Below, one piece after another: positions 17,200-25,367 of a DNA stretch of 64,000 nt; within the stretch, counting starts at the first letter, position 1, and every line of letters starts with the position of its first letter. A model generated the notes under the pieces. That model made no database searches, was not told where the DNA came from, and worked only from the letters and a program-made list of their open reading frames with translations. The stretch comes from Rhodococcus sp. Leaf278. GTDB lineage: Bacteria > Actinomycetota > Actinomycetes > Mycobacteriales > Mycobacteriaceae. Where the stretch lies: assembly GCF_001426085.1 (NCBI RefSeq), contig NZ_LMRR01000005.1:1-64000 (forward strand), given 5' to 3'. The position numbers and the translations under genes are program-made.

Positions 17200-17925
17200 T
17201 CAGCCCAGCAGTGAATTACGCTCGGTGTGGGTGAACGTGAAGATCGTCGCACCGAAGCTGATCAATGCCGTGAGAAGCAGTACCTGCGGTCCGGTGATGA
17301 CAACGCCGATGAAAGCGCCGACGACCCCGCCCAGTGCGAACGAACCGAGAAGCGCTGTGTAGCTGAGCCAGTCGTAATGGGTTCCACCACCGAACAGATG
17401 GCGCTCGATACCTTGGCCGAGTTTGACCAACGTTCCGGTGACGTAGCTGAGGGGAATGTACGTCTCTTCCTTCTTCGTGAACGCGGTGTTGAGAGCGCCG
17501 AGTGCGAAGGCCACCAACAGAATCGGGTAGAAGTTCACGTTCGCGGAAGACCAACCGGAGATCGCAATGTCGATCGTCCCTGCTGCCGCGAGTGCAATGG
17601 TGGTCAGCACCGTTGCTCCGTGCGGATGATTCGACCAGTAGCGCCGCCGGCAGATCGACGAGATCACCACACCCGCAAGAAACGACCCCATGAGGGCCAG
17701 CGCTGCCCACGGCGAAGCGCCCGGTGCAACCTCCTTGCCCTCCGGGTGTCCGAAGTGGCCGACGACCGCACGCTCGGTGTTCCCGGTCATGAACGTCACG
17801 AAATAGCCGGCGGAATGCAGGAACGCCACTGCGCCCACCATTCCCGCGAGTCCGGACAGGATCCAGGACAGACGAGCTTCGGCACCGATGGCTGTGTCGC
17901 GGCTGATCGACAGGGGTGAGGTCAT
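17200..17925 (-). CDS. DUF1275 (YoaK-like) membrane protein
   Basis: A 241-residue membrane protein with about six transmembrane segments and the family landmark FVTFMTGNTERAV near residues 42-54. The DUF1275/YoaK family is widespread and its function is not established. The start ATG at 17925 is clear. It lies convergent to the TetR gene with a 13-base gap, and downstream of the MAA operon on the same strand, 50 bases after that operon's last gene. It could be co-transcribed with the MAA genes, but nothing in the family points to that pathway. Confidence 0.85.
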   Translation of the reverse strand: MTSPLSISRDTAIGAEARLSWILSGLAGMVGAVAFLHSAGYFVTFMTGNTERAVVGHFGHPEGKEVAPGASPWAALALMGSFLAGVVISSICRRRYWSNHPHGATVLTTIALAAAGTIDIAISGWSSANVNFYPILLVAFALGALNTAFTKKEETYIPLSYVTGTLVKLGQGIERHLFGGGTHYDWLSYTALLGSFALGGVVGAFIGVVITGPQVLLLTALISFGATIFTFTHTERNSLLG

Positions 17926-17975
17926 GACTCGATTGTCCGGACCTCAGAGGAGGCGGCAACTCTTTGAGTCGTCGG

Positions 17976-18728
17976 TCACATAACCGACGCGTTCTCCGCA
18001 TTCGCGATCATTCCGCGGTGCATCACCCTGTTTCCCACTACGCCGCTGTGATCGGCCCGATGCATCACACATCGGTTGTCCCACATGACCAGATCACCGG
18101 GAGCCCATGCGTGCTGCAGTACGTTCTCCGCTCGAGTGGAGTGCTCGAAAAGGTACCGTATGGTCTCGCGCGTCTGCTCGGAGTTCATTCCGCTGATCGC
18201 GACACATCGGGCGGGTGCCGAGAGAGCCAGGGCGGTGCGGCCGGACAGCGGATGGACTGCGAACAAGGGATGTTCGGCGGAGGAATCGGTGTCCGACGCC
18301 ACCCCGGTCACCCGATGTGTCACCGTGCGTCCCGCCAGGTCCTCTTTCATTGCCGCAGGCAGCGTCTCGTACGCCGAGTACTGGTCGCTGAACTGCGTGC
18401 TGCCGCCGGCCGCCGGTACGGACACCGCCCGTAATGCCGTGTACGCGGGCGGATTCGGCACGTACGTCGTATCCACGTGGAACGTCGACTTCGGCGGCGT
18501 GGTGCGGCCGACGTTGCTCACGACGTTCAGGTCGGGAAATCCCGGGACCGGAGTCTCGCCCTCGGTGAACATCATCTCGCCGAACCGACGCAGAAACGCC
18601 AGGAAACGCTCGTCGTCCAGGGCCTGTTCTCGCAGTATCAGCACACCGTGTTCGGCCAGCTGCGTGCGTAATTCGTCCACCGAGGCCGAGGCGAGGTCCA
18701 GACCGCGGATTTCAATTCCCAACGTCAT
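17976..18728 (-). CDS. TauD/TfdA-family Fe(II)/2-oxoglutarate dioxygenase of the MAA operon
   Basis: A 250-residue non-haem iron dioxygenase. The 2-His-1-carboxylate site is complete: His84 and Asp86 in STFHVDTTY, and His223 in WDNRCVMH, with Arg238 (VMHRGM) as the likely 2-oxoglutarate ligand. It is the last gene of the mysA-D operon, and its ATG overlaps the mysD stop (ATGA), so it is made with that ligase. Cyanobacterial MAA clusters can carry MysH, an Fe/2OG enzyme of the phytanoyl-CoA family that trims the amino-acid arm to give palythines. This TauD-type enzyme may do a comparable oxidative tailoring; that role is an inference. Confidence 0.88.
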   Translation of the reverse strand: MTLGIEIRGLDLASASVDELRTQLAEHGVLILREQALDDERFLAFLRRFGEMMFTEGETPVPGFPDLNVVSNVGRTTPPKSTFHVDTTYVPNPPAYTALRAVSVPAAGGSTQFSDQYSAYETLPAAMKEDLAGRTVTHRVTGVASDTDSSAEHPLFAVHPLSGRTALALSAPARCVAISGMNSEQTRETIRYLFEHSTRAENVLQHAWAPGDLVMWDNRCVMHRADHSGVVGNRVMHRGMIANAENASVM

Positions 18729-19747
18729 GACGCCAACTCCTTGTTCGATAGTTCCGCGACCGACTTCGCGAACAAGCGGTCGATCGGGATGTCCGCTGCC
18801 GCAGCCATCACCGCGAGCACACTCGAAGGCGAGTACGAGCAGTAGAGACCGGCCTCGAGGAACCATGGTTCCCCGTCGGGGTCGATGCGAAAGTCGAACA
18901 GCCCGTAGTGCCGGCACCCCAGCGACCGATAGCATGATCGTGCTGCCGCCCACACCTTCTCGGTGATCGGATCCGAGGAGTCGACAATCCATGCCTTGGT
19001 CTGCTGCTTCGCGACCAGGTACAGATCTCCGTCCTCGGTTCGATTCAACTTGTCGGCACTCGTCCGCACGGAGTCGACGGCGTACTCCTCCAGGGGCAGG
19101 CACACCAGCTCACCGTCCATCGCGATGATGCCGCACCGAACCTCGCGCCCGAGTGGAACATACGATTCGACCAGTGCAGCAGACGAATACGCCAGCGCCT
19201 CGTCGATTGCGGAGATCAACGAGTCTTCGTCCTCCACGAGCGTGACGCCCATCGAATTGTCGGAGTCGACGGGCTTGACGACGACAGGCAATTCGAGATC
19301 GACGGTCCCGCCACTGTGCACCACCGTGCCGGCCGGGACGGCGACTCCGGCGGCGGCGACGACGGCACGGGCCAGTGCCTTGTCGGCCGTCATGGCCATG
19401 ACGGCCGGTATGTTACCCACATATGGCACATCCATCAGATCGAACAGGCTGCGGTAAGTCGTCATACCGGGTAAGCAGAACATCTGCGGCACCATGACGT
19501 CGAAGTGCCACGTAGACATGACCTCCACTGCCTGAGCCAGGGGTACCTGTTGCGCCGCAGCCACACTGGCAGCGTCGATACCGTCGGGAAAACTCCACAT
19601 CCCGCCGGGGGAGACGAACGCGATCACCAGCTGGTACGCGGGATCGTTACCGATCGCCTCGAGAAAGCCGCCTGCATACACCCGAGACAGATCGCAGTGG
19701 AACTCATCCACCGAGGATCCTACGAGCACCAGCACCGACAGTGCCAT
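18725..19747 (-). CDS. mysD: D-Ala-D-Ala ligase-like ATP-grasp enzyme, MysD homologue
   Basis: A 340-residue ATP-grasp ligase related to D-Ala-D-Ala ligase. LPVVVKPVDSDNSMGVTLVE is the ATP-grasp lysine and glycine loop, and GLFDFRIDPDGEPWFLEAG the metal-binding end. In mycosporine-like amino acid synthesis MysD attaches a second amino acid to mycosporine-glycine, giving an imine such as shinorine or porphyra-334. The assignment rests on its place directly after a MysC-type ATP-grasp gene, whose stop TGA shares one base with this ATG. A cell-wall ligase role is unlikely given the operon. Confidence 0.85.
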   Translation of the reverse strand: MALSVLVLVGSSVDEFHCDLSRVYAGGFLEAIGNDPAYQLVIAFVSPGGMWSFPDGIDAASVAAAQQVPLAQAVEVMSTWHFDVMVPQMFCLPGMTTYRSLFDLMDVPYVGNIPAVMAMTADKALARAVVAAAGVAVPAGTVVHSGGTVDLELPVVVKPVDSDNSMGVTLVEDEDSLISAIDEALAYSSAALVESYVPLGREVRCGIIAMDGELVCLPLEEYAVDSVRTSADKLNRTEDGDLYLVAKQQTKAWIVDSSDPITEKVWAAARSCYRSLGCRHYGLFDFRIDPDGEPWFLEAGLYCSYSPSSVLAVMAAAADIPIDRLFAKSVAELSNKELAS

Positions 19748-21033
19748 CAGTCGCCTCCGTTCTCCACGAGCTTGCCGATGTTGAAGTCGATACGAGACCA
19801 GCCGCGGCGCGCGGCGAGATTGCGCAGCAGTAGCGACGGGATCTGCAGGTGGTGCACCAGCAGGTAGGGCAGCGGATCCCACCCCGTGAGGATGGCGTCC
19901 TTGCCTCGAAAGATGGTGCGCAGCCGTGATACTCGATTGCCCTCGGTGATCAACCGCCACAGTTCGTGGTAGATCCAGTACGTCGGCCGGGCCGTCGGAC
20001 GCGGCACGGTCATCGGATGACCGTCGTCGAGGTATGCGGCAGCCAGTTCGGGGTGGTCGTAGAACATGGTGATCGCCGAGTGGGTACGCGGGTTGCATTC
20101 GATGGCGTAGATCTGGCCGTCGGCAGCGGACTCGATGAAGTCGAACGACAGCTGCCCGGTGGTGTCGAGCGAAGAGACGAATGTGTGCACCCAGCTCAGG
20201 ATTTCGGGTTTGTCCACCATCTCGTAGTTGACCTGGAACGCCGACGAGACGCAGCAGCCGTAGACCTGCAGGCGACCCTCGCGCACAGTGCCGTGCGTGC
20301 AGTACTCCTGTCCGGCGATGAATTCCTGCAGAATCCACGGATCGTCCTCGGTGATGTGCAGGCTTCGGGCGAACGAAGAGTTACGCTCCGGCGTGTGCGC
20401 CGTCAACCGCGTCAGATCCATTCGGCCGACCGGGTTGTACGAGATTCGCTTGAGGATGTACTCACGACCCGGCTCGAACTCGAACTCGTCGATCTGGGTC
20501 GGGTCGGTGATGCGCCTGAAGTCGGGAACCCGTAGCCCCAATGACGCTGCGTGCTCGGAGAATCGGGACTTGTCGTCCACCATCCGCACGGTATCGGCGT
20601 CACCGTGGATCACCTCGCAGTGCGCGTCGAGAATCGCACGTGCGTCCGCATCGTGAATGCTCGCGGCCGGGCTGGCCACAGGCACGAAGACATCGACCCC
20701 CTCGCGACGAACGATGTCCAGCAGAGCCTGCGCGTATCCCGGATCTCCCGGATCGGGTATGCAATGGAAGCGGTCGACGGCGCGCGAGAAGCGATGTCCG
20801 GTCCATCGGTACTTCGCGGATTCCACCAGGATCACTCGATGCCCGGCAAGATGAAAGGACCGTGCGAGTTGCAGGGCCTTGGTCATCTTTCCGCCGCTGA
20901 TCAGAACGGTTCGCGGTGCAGGAGTTCGATGTGTGGCGGGCCTGGTACCACGCAGAGCGGCCACCCCCACCACCGCAAGATCGACGGGGAGGGTGGCCGT
21001 CAGGCCGATCAGTGCTGCGACGGTACGGATCAT
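19747..21033 (-). CDS. mysC: ATP-grasp ligase, MysC homologue (mycosporine-glycine synthase)
   Basis: A 428-residue ATP-grasp enzyme with a short hydrophobic N terminus, as seen in MysC proteins. The nucleotide-binding N domain shows VLISGGKMTKALQLAR, the ATP-grasp core YILKRISYNPVGRMDL, then DPWILQEFIAGQEYCTHG, and the metal site YAIECNPRTHSAITMF has the full E-x-N-x-R. MysC activates 4-deoxygadusol and adds glycine to form mycosporine-glycine, the first UV-absorbing MAA. The ATG at 21033 overlaps the methyltransferase stop (ATGA). Confidence 0.88.
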   Translation of the reverse strand: MIRTVAALIGLTATLPVDLAVVGVAALRGTRPATHRTPAPRTVLISGGKMTKALQLARSFHLAGHRVILVESAKYRWTGHRFSRAVDRFHCIPDPGDPGYAQALLDIVRREGVDVFVPVASPAASIHDADARAILDAHCEVIHGDADTVRMVDDKSRFSEHAASLGLRVPDFRRITDPTQIDEFEFEPGREYILKRISYNPVGRMDLTRLTAHTPERNSSFARSLHITEDDPWILQEFIAGQEYCTHGTVREGRLQVYGCCVSSAFQVNYEMVDKPEILSWVHTFVSSLDTTGQLSFDFIESAADGQIYAIECNPRTHSAITMFYDHPELAAAYLDDGHPMTVPRPTARPTYWIYHELWRLITEGNRVSRLRTIFRGKDAILTGWDPLPYLLVHHLQIPSLLLRNLAARRGWSRIDFNIGKLVENGGD

Positions 21034-21830
21034 GTGCGCCGGATCAGCGTCACGCCGTCGCGCAGTGGGATCAGAACCTGTTGCACACGAGGGTCGTTGG
21101 CGACGTAGTCGTTGAATTCGGCGATGGCCCGGCCGTTCTCGTTCGGCTGCGCCGCGTAGGGCTGCCCTTGAAGCAGGGTGTTGTCGACGGCGATCACGGC
21201 ACCGTCGGAGAGCAGATCGCTCTCGAGCAGATACTCCACGTACTCGCGGTATCCAGTCTTGTCGGCGTCGATGAACACCAGGTCGAAGGTGCCGTCGAGC
21301 CTGCGAAGAGTGTCGAGCGCGGGACCTACCTGCACCGTGATGGCTGATCCTGCAGTCGACTCCGCGAAGCACGACTGCGCGAACTCGGCCACGTACGGGT
21401 CGACCTCGCACGCGACGACCTCGCCGCCGGCAGGCAGCGCCTCGGCCATGGCAAGCGCCGAGTACCCGGTGAACATACCGATCTCGAGCACCCGCGTCGC
21501 CCGGGTCATGAGTACGAGAAACGCCAGGAAGCGTCCCTCCACATGGCCGGAGAGCATTTCCATCTCCAGGGGCCCGGAACCGGAGACCACGTCACGTGAT
21601 CTCCAGTCCGCCGAGCGGGTCCGCGACGCCAACGTGGCCAATGCCGCAGATTCGGAGGTGGTGCAGGTATCGAGGTACGGGTCGAGTCCCGCCGCGAGAT
21701 CGCGGGCCCGATGAACACGGGTGATCAATGCGTCGGTCACCCCGGCGTCGGAATCGAGCAGCGCAGCTATCTCGCCGAGCTCGCGCGCCAGAATGGTCGT
21801 CGGGGTGACCGGTCGCGGTTCTACCGTCAC
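21030..21830 (-). CDS. mysB: SAM-dependent O-methyltransferase, MysB homologue
   Basis: A 266-residue class I methyltransferase of the caffeoyl-CoA/catechol O-methyltransferase group. The SAM site is [20 protein letters not shown], with acidic loop EVVACEVDP, and the metal-binding segment is [19 protein letters not shown]. In the MAA pathway it methylates desmethyl-4-deoxygadusol to 4-deoxygadusol. The GTG start at 21830 overlaps the mysA stop (GTGA). Position between DDGS and MysC homologues makes the assignment strong. Confidence 0.9.
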
Positions 21831-23038
21831 TGTGTCGGTGCGGTGAACATGTCCAGGCCCTCGCCGGCGCGGGGGAAGTCGAGGCAGATCTTCTTGTGCA
21901 GTGTCAGCACATCCGCCAGCTCGTTCGCGTCGAGATCGTTGAGGAACGTGCAGGTGCCGATCGGGTCGGGTACTGCGGCGCGCAGGATACCGTCGCGGGT
22001 CTTGAGGATCGATGCCGTTGCCTCGGAGAGCAATTCAGGGGTGAGGTACGGGCTGTCGAGTGCCAGTCCGATGCTGCTCATGACTCCCAGCACCCGATCA
22101 CGATCGGCAGTGGACAAATGGCCCCTCTGCTCGGCGACGGTCGTCGACAGTGCCATGTCGATGTTGATGGCGTGGCCGTGGAAGAACGGAGCGGGCGGCG
22201 TCAGCTCGAGCGTCGGGCTCCAGGTGTGGCCGAAGGCGATGACGCGATCGAGGTCGATCTCGTGGAGATTGGGGGCCTCGAGCTCGAGCATCGTCGCGAT
22301 GGCCGAGTACGTCAATCGATCTGCCACCGAACGCAATTCGGGCGTCCCGTCGAGGTGGCCGAAGCGAGTACGCAGCAGTTCGGGGCCGTACTGCTCCAGC
22401 ATCTCGAAGATCTCCAGGTTGCCGACGACGGAGATCTTGATCAGCTCGGCCATACCGTTGCGAACCTGGTCCTCGGGCAGTGTGCCGAGGAACGAGAAGT
22501 CGAGCAGCACCTTCTGCGATGCGTGATACGCACCCAGGCGGTTCTTGTGCTTGCCGTAGTTCACGGCAACCTTGATCGACACGCTTGCGTCGATCAGGCC
22601 GATCAGCGTCGTGGGAATGCGGATGTACGGGGTGTTGCGTCGGTAGCTGGCGCACGCGAAACCTGCTACGTCGGTGGTCAATCCACCACCGACCACCAGG
22701 ACCGGCTCGGTACGGACCAAGCCGTAGGCGTCGAATTCACCGACGATGCGCTCGAAGGTCTCGAGCGACTTCGCGGTTTCTCTGATCTGTACCGGGACCA
22801 CGGTCAGCGCGATGTCGTGATGGTCGAAGTACGCGTGGATGCGGTCGCCGTAGATCTCGTGAACCGATTCGTCGACGACCATCAGCGCGCGTCCGTACGG
22901 ACGGTAACTGTCGGCCAGTTCGGTGTTCTCGAGGGCGAAGACACCGTCGACGTAGATCAGGTCGTACTCGATTCGCTCGTATCCCTCGACACGAAAAGAC
23001 CTGTCCCCGGCAACGACCTGGGCCTGAAGATTGCTCAC
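21827..23038 (-). CDS. mysA: Desmethyl-4-deoxygadusol synthase, MysA homologue (sugar-phosphate cyclase)
   Basis: A 403-residue member of the dehydroquinate-synthase-like sugar phosphate cyclases. It would cyclise sedoheptulose 7-phosphate to desmethyl-4-deoxygadusol using NAD+ and a metal ion. The NAD loop is [18 protein letters not shown]. The segment [20 protein letters not shown], then [10 protein letters not shown], follows the DDGS pattern rather than the DAG-x2-K-TGVN pattern of valiolone synthases. Metal-binding residues lie in [19 protein letters not shown] and [12 protein letters not shown]. It starts the core mys gene set, 24 bases after the HAD-like gene. Confidence 0.9.
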
Positions 23039-23062
23039 AATTACTCCTGGGTTGATGAAGGG

Positions 23063-23728
23063 TCAGGCTGAGATCAGAGCGCGGACGCGCTCGGGATCGA
23101 GGGCCTCGACGGTATCGGTGGCCGAGCCGAACTCGGTGCCTGCAGTGTTCTCGTTCGGGAATGCGACGCACGTGATGCCCGCTGCCGTTGCCGCCTGCAC
23201 GCCGCCGGCGTTGTCCTCGATGGCCACACTGTCGGATGCGTTCTCGCCCAGCGTCTTCAGCGCGAACTCGTAGGACGCGGGATCGGGCTTGCCCGAGTCG
23301 ACCGAGGACGCGTCGACGATGACGTCGAACGAGTCGGCGGTGAGCTCAGGGCTCAGGGCCGCCAGCAATGCGTCGATGTTGTCGCGGGATGTGGTGGTCA
23401 CGAAGCCCACCTTCATGCCGTTCGCCTTCGCGGAGTCGATCGTATCGGCAACACCGGGGCGGGTTTTCACGTCGGATTCGCCGATCAGCCGTTGGAAGAT
23501 CTCCGATTTGGTGGCGTGTACCGCGGCGGCGTCGACCTCGGTGCCCGTGTCGGATGCGTACTCGCTGATGCGGTCGGCACCACCGTTGGACCCGAGCATG
23601 GAACGGTAGTCCTCACGAGACCAGTTCCAGTTCAGATCGTGAGCTGCGAATGCCTCGTTGAACGAGCGACGTTGCAGTTCGGACGTGTCGACGAGCGTGC
23701 TGATCGAACCGAACAGAATTGCGGACAT
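23063..23728 (-). CDS. HAD-like protein with altered catalytic motif I, first gene of the MAA operon
   Basis: A 221-residue CbbY/PGMB-type haloacid dehalogenase fold. The C-terminal motifs are intact: a Thr/Ser motif II in GFVTTTSRDN, the Lys of KPDPASYEF and the acidic pair in VAIEDNAGGVQAA. Motif I, normally D-x-D-G-T, reads F6-G-S-I-S-T11, so both catalytic aspartates are replaced by Gly and Ile. The protein is therefore unlikely to use the usual phospho-aspartate chemistry. It may be a non-hydrolytic binding protein, or use a different acid. It lies 24 bases upstream of mysA on the same strand, which ties it to sugar-phosphate or cyclitol metabolism. Confidence 0.85.
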   Translation of the reverse strand: MSAILFGSISTLVDTSELQRRSFNEAFAAHDLNWNWSREDYRSMLGSNGGADRISEYASDTGTEVDAAAVHATKSEIFQRLIGESDVKTRPGVADTIDSAKANGMKVGFVTTTSRDNIDALLAALSPELTADSFDVIVDASSVDSGKPDPASYEFALKTLGENASDSVAIEDNAGGVQAATAAGITCVAFPNENTAGTEFGSATDTVEALDPERVRALISA

Positions 23729-23769
23729 GAGTGCCTTTCGGGGCGAGAGACCTTGTACCAGTCAATGTC

Positions 23770-23783
23770 TCGCGCATGCGCGA
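23770..23783. promoter_or_regulatory. Perfect 14-bp palindrome upstream of the MAA operon
   Basis: TCGCGCATGCGCGA, an exact palindrome, lies 41 bases upstream of the HAD-like start in the 115-base gap that follows the cyclase gene. The same gap has an 8-base inverted pair, CCTTTCGG (23734-23741) and CCGAAAGG (23820-23827), and a GGGGTATGCCCC hairpin. It is the best operator candidate for the MAA genes; the regulator is unknown. Confidence 0.4.
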
Positions 23784-23843
23784 TGGGTGAGTTGGTTCGG
23801 GGGGTATGCCCCATCGGCACCGAAAGGGAAACCTTCGAATTTT

Positions 23844-25367
23844 CTACGGTGTGGTGGGCGCTCCATGTCGATGCGTGGGTGCGGCCAGCACCGTCGGTGT
23901 CGATCGTCCGCGCAGTGTGACCGACTCACCTGTTGTCCAGTGCTTCCTCTCGTCCGCGGTTGCGTGCTCGAGCACGATCGAGGACGTGAGCACATCGGTG
24001 TCGGGGTCGTCCTTGGCGAGATCGGTGAGCCGGGCCGCCTGATTCACGGTGTCGCCGATGACGGTGTACTCGAAGCGCGATTCGGCCCCGATGTTGCCCG
24101 CGATGACCGGGCCGTACGTCACCCCGATGCCGATCTCGAAGCCGCCGCCGGAAGCGAGAGCGACGGCCAGAGTGCGCGCGGTGCGGAGTGCTGCTGTGGC
24201 CGGATCGGGGTGATCGACCGGAGCGCCGAAGATCAGCAATGCGGCGTCACCCTCGAACTTGTTGACGAAGCCGCCGTGTCGTTCGCCGTGTTCGACCACC
24301 ACCGCGAAGAACCGATTGAGAAGGTCGACCACTGCCTCCGCGGATTCTCGCTCGGCCATGGCCGTCGAACCCACCAGGTCGATGAACAGCACCGCGACCG
24401 TCCGGTTCTCGCCGCCGAGGCGGGGAGCACTCGCCAGTGCCCGTTGCGCCACGTCGTGGCCCACGTGTCTGCCGAACAGAGAACGCAGTCGCTCGCGCTC
24501 GTCGAGACCGACCACCATCTTGTTGAACCCGTTCTGCAATCGGCCGATCTCGGACGCGTCGTAGACGTCGACGCGGGTGTCCGTCGCCCCGGCCTCCACC
24601 CGTTGCATGGCGCTACTGACCTGCTGTAGCGGGTCCGACACGGAACGGCCCACCAGAAACATGCCGCCGAATCCGACGACCAAGGCGATCGCGGACAGCG
24701 ACACCATCGCGGGAGACAGGTCGACGTCGGGTGGGATGACGGTGTCGATCAGTCTGCCGAGTCCGATGAGACCGAGACCCAGGATGGGGATGGCCGTGCT
24801 CAGTACCCAGATGAGGACCACGCGTAGCTTCACGCCGAGAGCAACCGTGTCGGTGACCTCGCTGACGTCCATCACCGCGGCGGTGATCGGTCGAAGCGTT
24901 CGTTCGGCGACCAGATAGCCCAACGAGCAGGTCGCCAATCCGCCGAAGCTCACGGCGATCGCGACGATGATCGACAATGCTGCGCCGGCCGACGCATTGA
25001 CCGCGACGAACACGGCGACGCCGAGGGCCCACAACAGAACGTGAACACCGAGCTGACGTAGAGGCAGTCGCACGACGGCGATCGCGGTGTCGTCCGACGG
25101 CGTTCCGCCGTTGTGCAGCCACAGTACGAGCGGTTTCGCGACGCGCAGCCCGAGGGCGATCCCGATACCGATCGCGACCGGCAGATAGACGAAGAACGCG
25201 AGGTAGTTCCGATTCGACAGGATCTCTTCGGATCCGACCGGCAACGGCAGGATGAAGCGCGCCAACACGAACACGATGACCGCCCCGATGGCGTTGGCCG
25301 ACACCATGCCCGCCGCGTACAGCCGCATCGGGGTGCGGCCGAGAGCGGACCGTAGAGCTGCGATCAC
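23844..25367 (-). CDS. Membrane-bound class III adenylate cyclase with HAMP domain
   Basis: A 507-residue protein of the mycobacterial Rv1318c/Rv3645 type. Six hydrophobic segments fill residues 15-240. A HAMP domain (about 240-290, SVSDPLQQVSSAMQRVEAG) leads into a catalytic domain. All class III catalytic residues are present: metal Asp in FIDLVGST and FEGDAALL, the adenine-selecting Lys in NKFEGD and Asp in IGDTVNQAARL, with the transition-state Asn and Arg of that motif. It makes cAMP from ATP in response to a membrane signal. The GTG at 25367 has CGGAGA at 7 bases; a TTG at 25460 is an alternative. The MAA operon follows on the same strand. Confidence 0.9.
   Translation of the reverse strand: MIAALRSALGRTPMRLYAAGMVSANAIGAVIVFVLARFILPLPVGSEEILSNRNYLAFFVYLPVAIGIGIALGLRVAKPLVLWLHNGGTPSDDTAIAVVRLPLRQLGVHVLLWALGVAVFVAVNASAGAALSIIVAIAVSFGGLATCSLGYLVAERTLRPITAAVMDVSEVTDTVALGVKLRVVLIWVLSTAIPILGLGLIGLGRLIDTVIPPDVDLSPAMVSLSAIALVVGFGGMFLVGRSVSDPLQQVSSAMQRVEAGATDTRVDVYDASEIGRLQNGFNKMVVGLDERERLRSLFGRHVGHDVAQRALASAPRLGGENRTVAVLFIDLVGSTAMAERESAEAVVDLLNRFFAVVVEHGERHGGFVNKFEGDAALLIFGAPVDHPDPATAALRTARTLAVALASGGGFEIGIGVTYGPVIAGNIGAESRFEYTVIGDTVNQAARLTDLAKDDPDTDVLTSSIVLEHATADERKHWTTGESVTLRGRSTPTVLAAPTHRHGAPTTP

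Follow-up and report, generated by a model that had tools for sequence, protein, structure and literature searches.

A mycosporine-like amino acid operon of Rhodococcus sp. Leaf278 that includes a HAD-like protein lacking the catalytic aspartates of its family

We describe an operon for synthesis of mycosporine-like amino acids (MAAs), which are UV-absorbing microbial sunscreens, in Rhodococcus sp. Leaf278. It lies in a 64,000-nucleotide stretch of DNA (assembly GCF_001426085.1, contig NZ_LMRR01000005.1, positions 1 to 64,000), hereafter the window. Six minus-strand genes spanning 23728-17976, as read from the list of open reading frames (ORFs) and the sequence, encode a haloacid dehalogenase (HAD)-like protein, MysA, MysB, MysC, MysD and a TauD-type dioxygenase, in that order. 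We consider it probable that these genes form a complete operon for disubstituted MAAs, in which the HAD-like protein is a non-catalytic binder of a ketose phosphate that delivers to or gates MysA. The operon layout itself is of an already described kind, because PMC11888242 reports actinobacterial MAA clusters with HAD and TauD genes and cites products of the R. fascians D188 operon, and PMC11284840 reports the product of MysABC from that strain. Hence, what is variant about this operon rests on the HAD-like protein.

Lost catalytic residues in the HAD-like protein

The gene and the codons in question are:

23063..23728, minus strand: HAD-like protein of the CbbY type, in which both catalytic Asp are substituted; the operon's first gene (221 aa, HAD_2)
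23699..23710, minus strand: codons for G7-S8-I9-S10, in place of CbbY D8-V9-D10-G11 (HAD motif I)
23672..23674, minus strand: codon for Q19, in place of CbbY H20

The closest solved relative of this protein is CbbY, a xylulose-1,5-bisphosphate phosphatase (PDB 4uar, 4uat). The shared fold extends over the whole length of the HAD-like protein, with 79 of 209 aligned residues identical, and both the cap and the pocket residues are kept. The mechanism of HAD enzymes needs both Asp residues of motif I (DxDG), one as nucleophile and one as acid/base. In the Leaf278 protein these are Gly and Ile, such that CbbY D8, D10, G11 and H20 correspond to G, I, S and Q. The motif II Thr, the motif III Lys and the motif IV Glu-Asp are kept. 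The genomic setting also differs: the HAD gene is part of an MAA operon, whereas the genes for two CbbY-like proteins in our comparison (L123, L124) are beside Rubisco genes.

The corresponding positions were compared in 226 database relatives among the matches listed. The position of the nucleophile is Gly in all 226, the position of the second catalytic Asp is never Asp, and the position of CbbY His20 is Gln in all 226. Conservation extends to the replaced loop (G7 in 226 of 226, S10 in 223), and 15 other shared residues that we tabulated are kept in 225-226. Furthermore, the ratio of nonsynonymous to synonymous substitution rates (dN/dS) is 0.066, the second lowest among the six operon genes, indicating strong purifying selection. 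We therefore reject a decayed pseudogene, given the low dN/dS and the invariant residues. Neutral decay of the active site is likewise unlikely, because the replaced loop and the motif II-IV residues have been held. Elsewhere, at locus L020, the HAD gene is split across two frames, and the N-terminal part, in the other frame, also reads GSIS.

An earlier, sequence-only reading of this DNA had called the protein "HAD-like". This is right as a label for the fold, but phosphatase activity of the protein is very improbable. Loss of the catalytic residues in every close relative examined points to a helper of sunscreen synthesis that is not an enzyme and has so far gone unrecognised. We found no report of such a loss in the HAD of an MAA cluster, either in the open literature or in the accessible part of the GATOR-GC preprint (PMC11888242). 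Among the open-literature results listed, that preprint was the only source to treat HAD and mycosporine together, and nothing useful was listed on HADs without the catalytic Asp or on residue roles.

Organization of the operon

The other five genes of the operon are:

21827..23038, minus strand: MysA, a sugar phosphate cyclase of the desmethyl-4-deoxygadusol synthase (DDGS) type (403 aa, DHQ_synthase)
21030..21830, minus strand: MysB, an S-adenosylmethionine-dependent O-methyltransferase (266 aa, Methyltransf_3 PF01596)
19747..21033, minus strand: MysC, an ATP-grasp amino acid ligase (428 aa, NCBIfam PRK06849)
18725..19747, minus strand: MysD, a D-Ala-D-Ala-ligase-like amino acid ligase (340 aa, Dala_Dala_lig_C PF07478)
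17976..18728, minus strand: TauD-type Fe(II)/2-oxoglutarate dioxygenase (250 aa, TauD PF02668)

The HAD and MysA genes are separated by a 24-base gap, and the next four junctions overlap by 4, 4, 1 and 4 bases. Thus, the ORFs and sequence bear out the gene order of the sequence-only reading and its claim that all junctions but one overlap by 1-4 bases. Its gene identities agree with our Pfam and NCBIfam scans, in which, as in the locus matching described below, we used a version of MysD with one extra residue. For MysC, the Pfam match to ATP-grasp_3 is only sub-threshold, yet the protein scores above the cut-off of NCBIfam PRK06849. MysC has no sequence relative in the PDB at E 1e-3. By eye, its N-terminus contains a hydrophobic stretch of ~25 residues, which could be a membrane anchor. 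A scan of 17700-23960 returned no promoters and no terminators; the means for shuffled sequence were 1.1 and 2.4, respectively.

A gene for a DUF1275 membrane protein (17200-17925) is on the same strand, 50 bases downstream of the operon. We rejected it as a seventh operon gene, since it was matched in only 9 of 70 loci, all from the fascians clade. Close matches to flanking genes are found mainly in loci of the R. fascians clade; outside it, flanking genes are matched at L011 and L014 and, weakly, at L009, L010 and L050-L052. That flanking genes match closely almost only in this clade marks the six genes as the conserved unit.

The TauD-type protein has a confident predicted fold (mean predicted local distance difference test score 91.1), a jelly-roll with the His-Asp...His ligands and the 2-oxoglutarate Arg. 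Its presumed metal ligands H84, D86 and H223 are kept, and what we take to be the metal and 2-oxoglutarate ligands are present in 40 of 40 sequences. Its dN/dS is 0.161. At E 0.001 its only domain match is PF02668 TauD, with no PhyH domain of the MysH type.

Cyclase type of MysA

MysA scores 565 bits against PDB 5tpr, which we take to be the Anabaena DDGS, and 273 bits against 4p53. At the two sites that presumably constitute the fingerprint distinguishing DDGS from 2-epi-5-epi-valiolone synthase (EEVS), A268 and T347 of MysA match 5tpr, whereas 4p53, the EEVS ValA (PMC4426668), has D and H. In a 35-row tree made by a quick method, MysA falls inside the clade that holds 5tpr (Shimodaira-Hasegawa-like approximate likelihood ratio test support 97), apart from the EEVS-like rows and from the other cyclase match of the same genome. 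Besides a single DDGS-type copy, the genome encodes one further match (30%), presumably AroB. The comparison with known cyclases thus supports MysA as DDGS-type, as the sequence-only reading had proposed; MysA does not group with valiolone or dehydroquinate synthases, and the fingerprint sites and tree placement reject both assignments.

Two genomes encode a second, EEVS-like cyclase alongside the DDGS one (L120 in genome G214, L121 in G703). In two MAA clusters outside the class of the window (L099:12792-15128 and L100:12490-14328), the cyclase fingerprint, with A at the first site and K at the second, resembles that of neither DDGS nor EEVS. These cyclases join the DDGS side of the tree by long branches, a placement that we do not rely on. 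Both clusters carry the same HAD without catalytic residues.

Conservation and variation of the cluster

In a single scan, short peptide patterns taken from MysA of the window yielded 67 loci; the collections have one genome per species, such that counts follow sampling. A gene was scored as present at a coverage of at least 80% on the plus strand, and as absent if the fetched DNA had no protein match in open frames of at least 60 residues. Of these loci, 53 have all six genes in the window's order, which argues that the arrangement is not due to chance. In the fascians clade, 8 full-length loci, including R. fascians NBRC 12155, have a MysA that shares 96-98% identity with the window's. The operon and flanks of L004, on a contig titled Rhodococcus ruber IEGM 1391, resemble those of the R. 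fascians clade, with 98% identity in MysA; hence, the species name may be wrong.

The remaining loci include several departures. TauD is between MysB and MysC in two (L054, L059), MysB is missing from three (L027, L032, L047), and contig ends cut three (L035, L066, L067). Four have HAD and MysA-MysD genes but no full TauD: there is none in L016, only weak partial matches in L055, a two-frame split in L061 and a contig-end cut in L036. Hence, the HAD gene persists where TauD or MysB has been lost. At the Kineosporia babensis locus (L058), an ORF between MysA and MysB encodes what looks to us like an IS605-type transposase. The three loci without MysB, and a cluster in G703 (L108) that also lacks it, are mycobacterial MAA clusters. 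The best MysB match genome-wide in G703 is 40% identical and partial, suggesting that the product of this cluster may be without the usual O-methyl group.

Among 394 genomes of the class, the HAD-like protein (57-100% identical) and a DDGS-type MysA (65-100%) occur in the same 10 genomes, including that of the window; identity falls to 32-35% in the remaining HAD matches (E 1e-20) and to 33-44% in the remaining cyclase matches (E 1e-60). Among 396 genomes of the phylum, 7 have MysC, again including the window's own; HAD is present in all 7 and TauD in 6. The HAD gene is also kept in four MAA clusters outside the window's class (L097-L100), adjoining the cyclase gene.

Discussion

How might a HAD-like protein without catalytic residues contribute to MAA synthesis? 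We propose that MysA would convert sedoheptulose 7-phosphate to desmethyl-4-deoxygadusol, which MysB would methylate. MysC would then add glycine, and MysD would attach another amino acid, which would be serine if MysD resembles that of the R. fascians D188 operon. These steps rest on the protein families and on published expression of orthologues. TauD would most likely hydroxylate the glycine and remove its carboxymethyl part, yielding palythine-type products. The HAD-like protein would bind a ketose phosphate without hydrolysis, most likely sedoheptulose 7-phosphate or a close relative, and would hand it to MysA or gate MysA. We infer the ligand and the partner, as well as the TauD reaction in Leaf278. 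We favour a role of the HAD-like protein near the first step: the substrate of its family is a ketose bisphosphate and that of the pathway a ketose phosphate; and its gene adjoins that of the cyclase in clusters outside the window's class too and survives the loss of TauD or MysB.

Published work agrees with the pathway proposed by the sequence-only reading and with its statement that such clusters are known from actinomycetes. The gene order of MysA-MysD matches a cyanobacterial cluster, that on a Nostoc HK-01 plasmid (L003, 17 kb), where MysA, MysB, MysC and MysD are 62, 55, 54 and 50% identical (559, 279, 493 and 381 bits). The GATOR-GC preprint describes HAD and TauD genes as conserved in actinobacterial MAA clusters and calls the role of HAD unvalidated (PMC11888242). 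It also cites an unpublished meeting abstract (Osborn and Mahmud, 2018), according to which S. coelicolor M1152 with the operon of R. fascians D188 made shinorine, palythine and palythine-serine. By published description, the operon of R. fascians (Rhodococcoides) D188 and the GATOR-GC clusters have the same kinds of gene as that of Leaf278, with no difference in gene content seen. An MAA cluster has also been reported for a Nakamurella strain (PMC9789016); the accessible text mentions neither a dioxygenase nor a dehalogenase.

MysH and MysI are, like TauD, 2-oxoglutarate dioxygenases of MAA clusters, and both have been proposed to form palythine by glycine hydroxylation (PMC10510106). MysI, a cyanobacterial enzyme distinct from MysH, is of the TauD/TfdA type and, by description, resembles the Leaf278 protein; however, it is found with MysF and the nonribosomal peptide synthetase MysE, both absent from this operon. 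MysH differs in being of the phytanoyl-CoA type. The authors of PMC11888242 suggest the glycine-hydroxylation route for TauD. TauD may set the final form of the MAA in Leaf278, and the GATOR-GC authors infer likewise.

Several observations weigh against a HAD-like protein that serves MysA. In Streptomyces albidoflavus, MysABC of R. fascians D188 alone is enough for ~150 mg/L mycosporine-glycine (PMC11284840). HAD can thus be dispensed with in this heterologous host, and we would expect it to act as a modulator. The Nostoc HK-01 cluster has no match to HAD, nor to TauD, and the K. babensis cluster has neither gene. L099 and L100 keep the HAD next to a different type of cyclase, in agreement with a common ligand but not with a contact specific to MysA. 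A Roseobacter litoralis plasmid protein (L122:8992-9663) has the same lost HAD residues, and its gene adjoins TrkH/TrkA genes; the other five operon proteins have no match on that plasmid. Hence, loss of the motif also occurs outside MAA operons. Moreover, loss of motif I is no proof that all catalysis by the HAD-like protein is gone. No fusion of HAD and cyclase genes was seen among the 17 open frames listed (226-296 aa), and no wider search was made.

An alternative is that the HAD-like protein is an unusual but active enzyme, in which the GSIS loop and the kept Thr, Lys, Glu and Asp serve a different reaction, with a phosphorylated intermediate of MysC or MysD, or the TauD product, among the possible substrates. 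Conservation of the replaced loop and of motifs II-IV would fit such an enzyme. However, both Asp residues of the mechanism are gone and His20 is replaced by Gln, and mycosporine-glycine is made by MysABC without HAD; we regard this explanation as unlikely. It is less likely still that the HAD-like protein works with TauD in palythine formation. The two genes are highly co-localised according to PMC11888242, and both are missing from L058. Nonetheless, HAD is present without intact TauD in L016, L055 and L061 of the 67 loci and in L101, and where TauD has moved to follow MysB (L054, L059) HAD stays next to the cyclase gene. A tie to TauD is disfavoured by the retention of HAD without intact TauD.

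The cluster could also be an ordinary MAA cluster of known type with HAD as a passenger that has no role. This agrees with the layout already described in PMC11888242 and with the sufficiency of MysABC for mycosporine-glycine (PMC11284840). The low dN/dS of HAD, its retention in L097-L100 and pocket residues that are invariant or nearly so make this very improbable.

Annotation of the HAD-like protein as a "hydrolase" is likely wrong. With the catalytic residues gone and the pocket kept, the role left open by the GATOR-GC preprint becomes a question of ligand binding. More tentatively, actinobacterial MAA operons may hold a natural substrate-trap CbbY: a pseudophosphatase that would hold a ketose phosphate (sedoheptulose 7-phosphate or one related to it), feed or gate the cyclase, and thereby control the flow of pentose-phosphate carbon into sunscreen. 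Such a pseudoenzyme regulator of a natural-product pathway would be old in the phylum or would have spread with the operon. If the HAD-like protein does feed MysA, adding it could raise the yields of microbial sunscreens.

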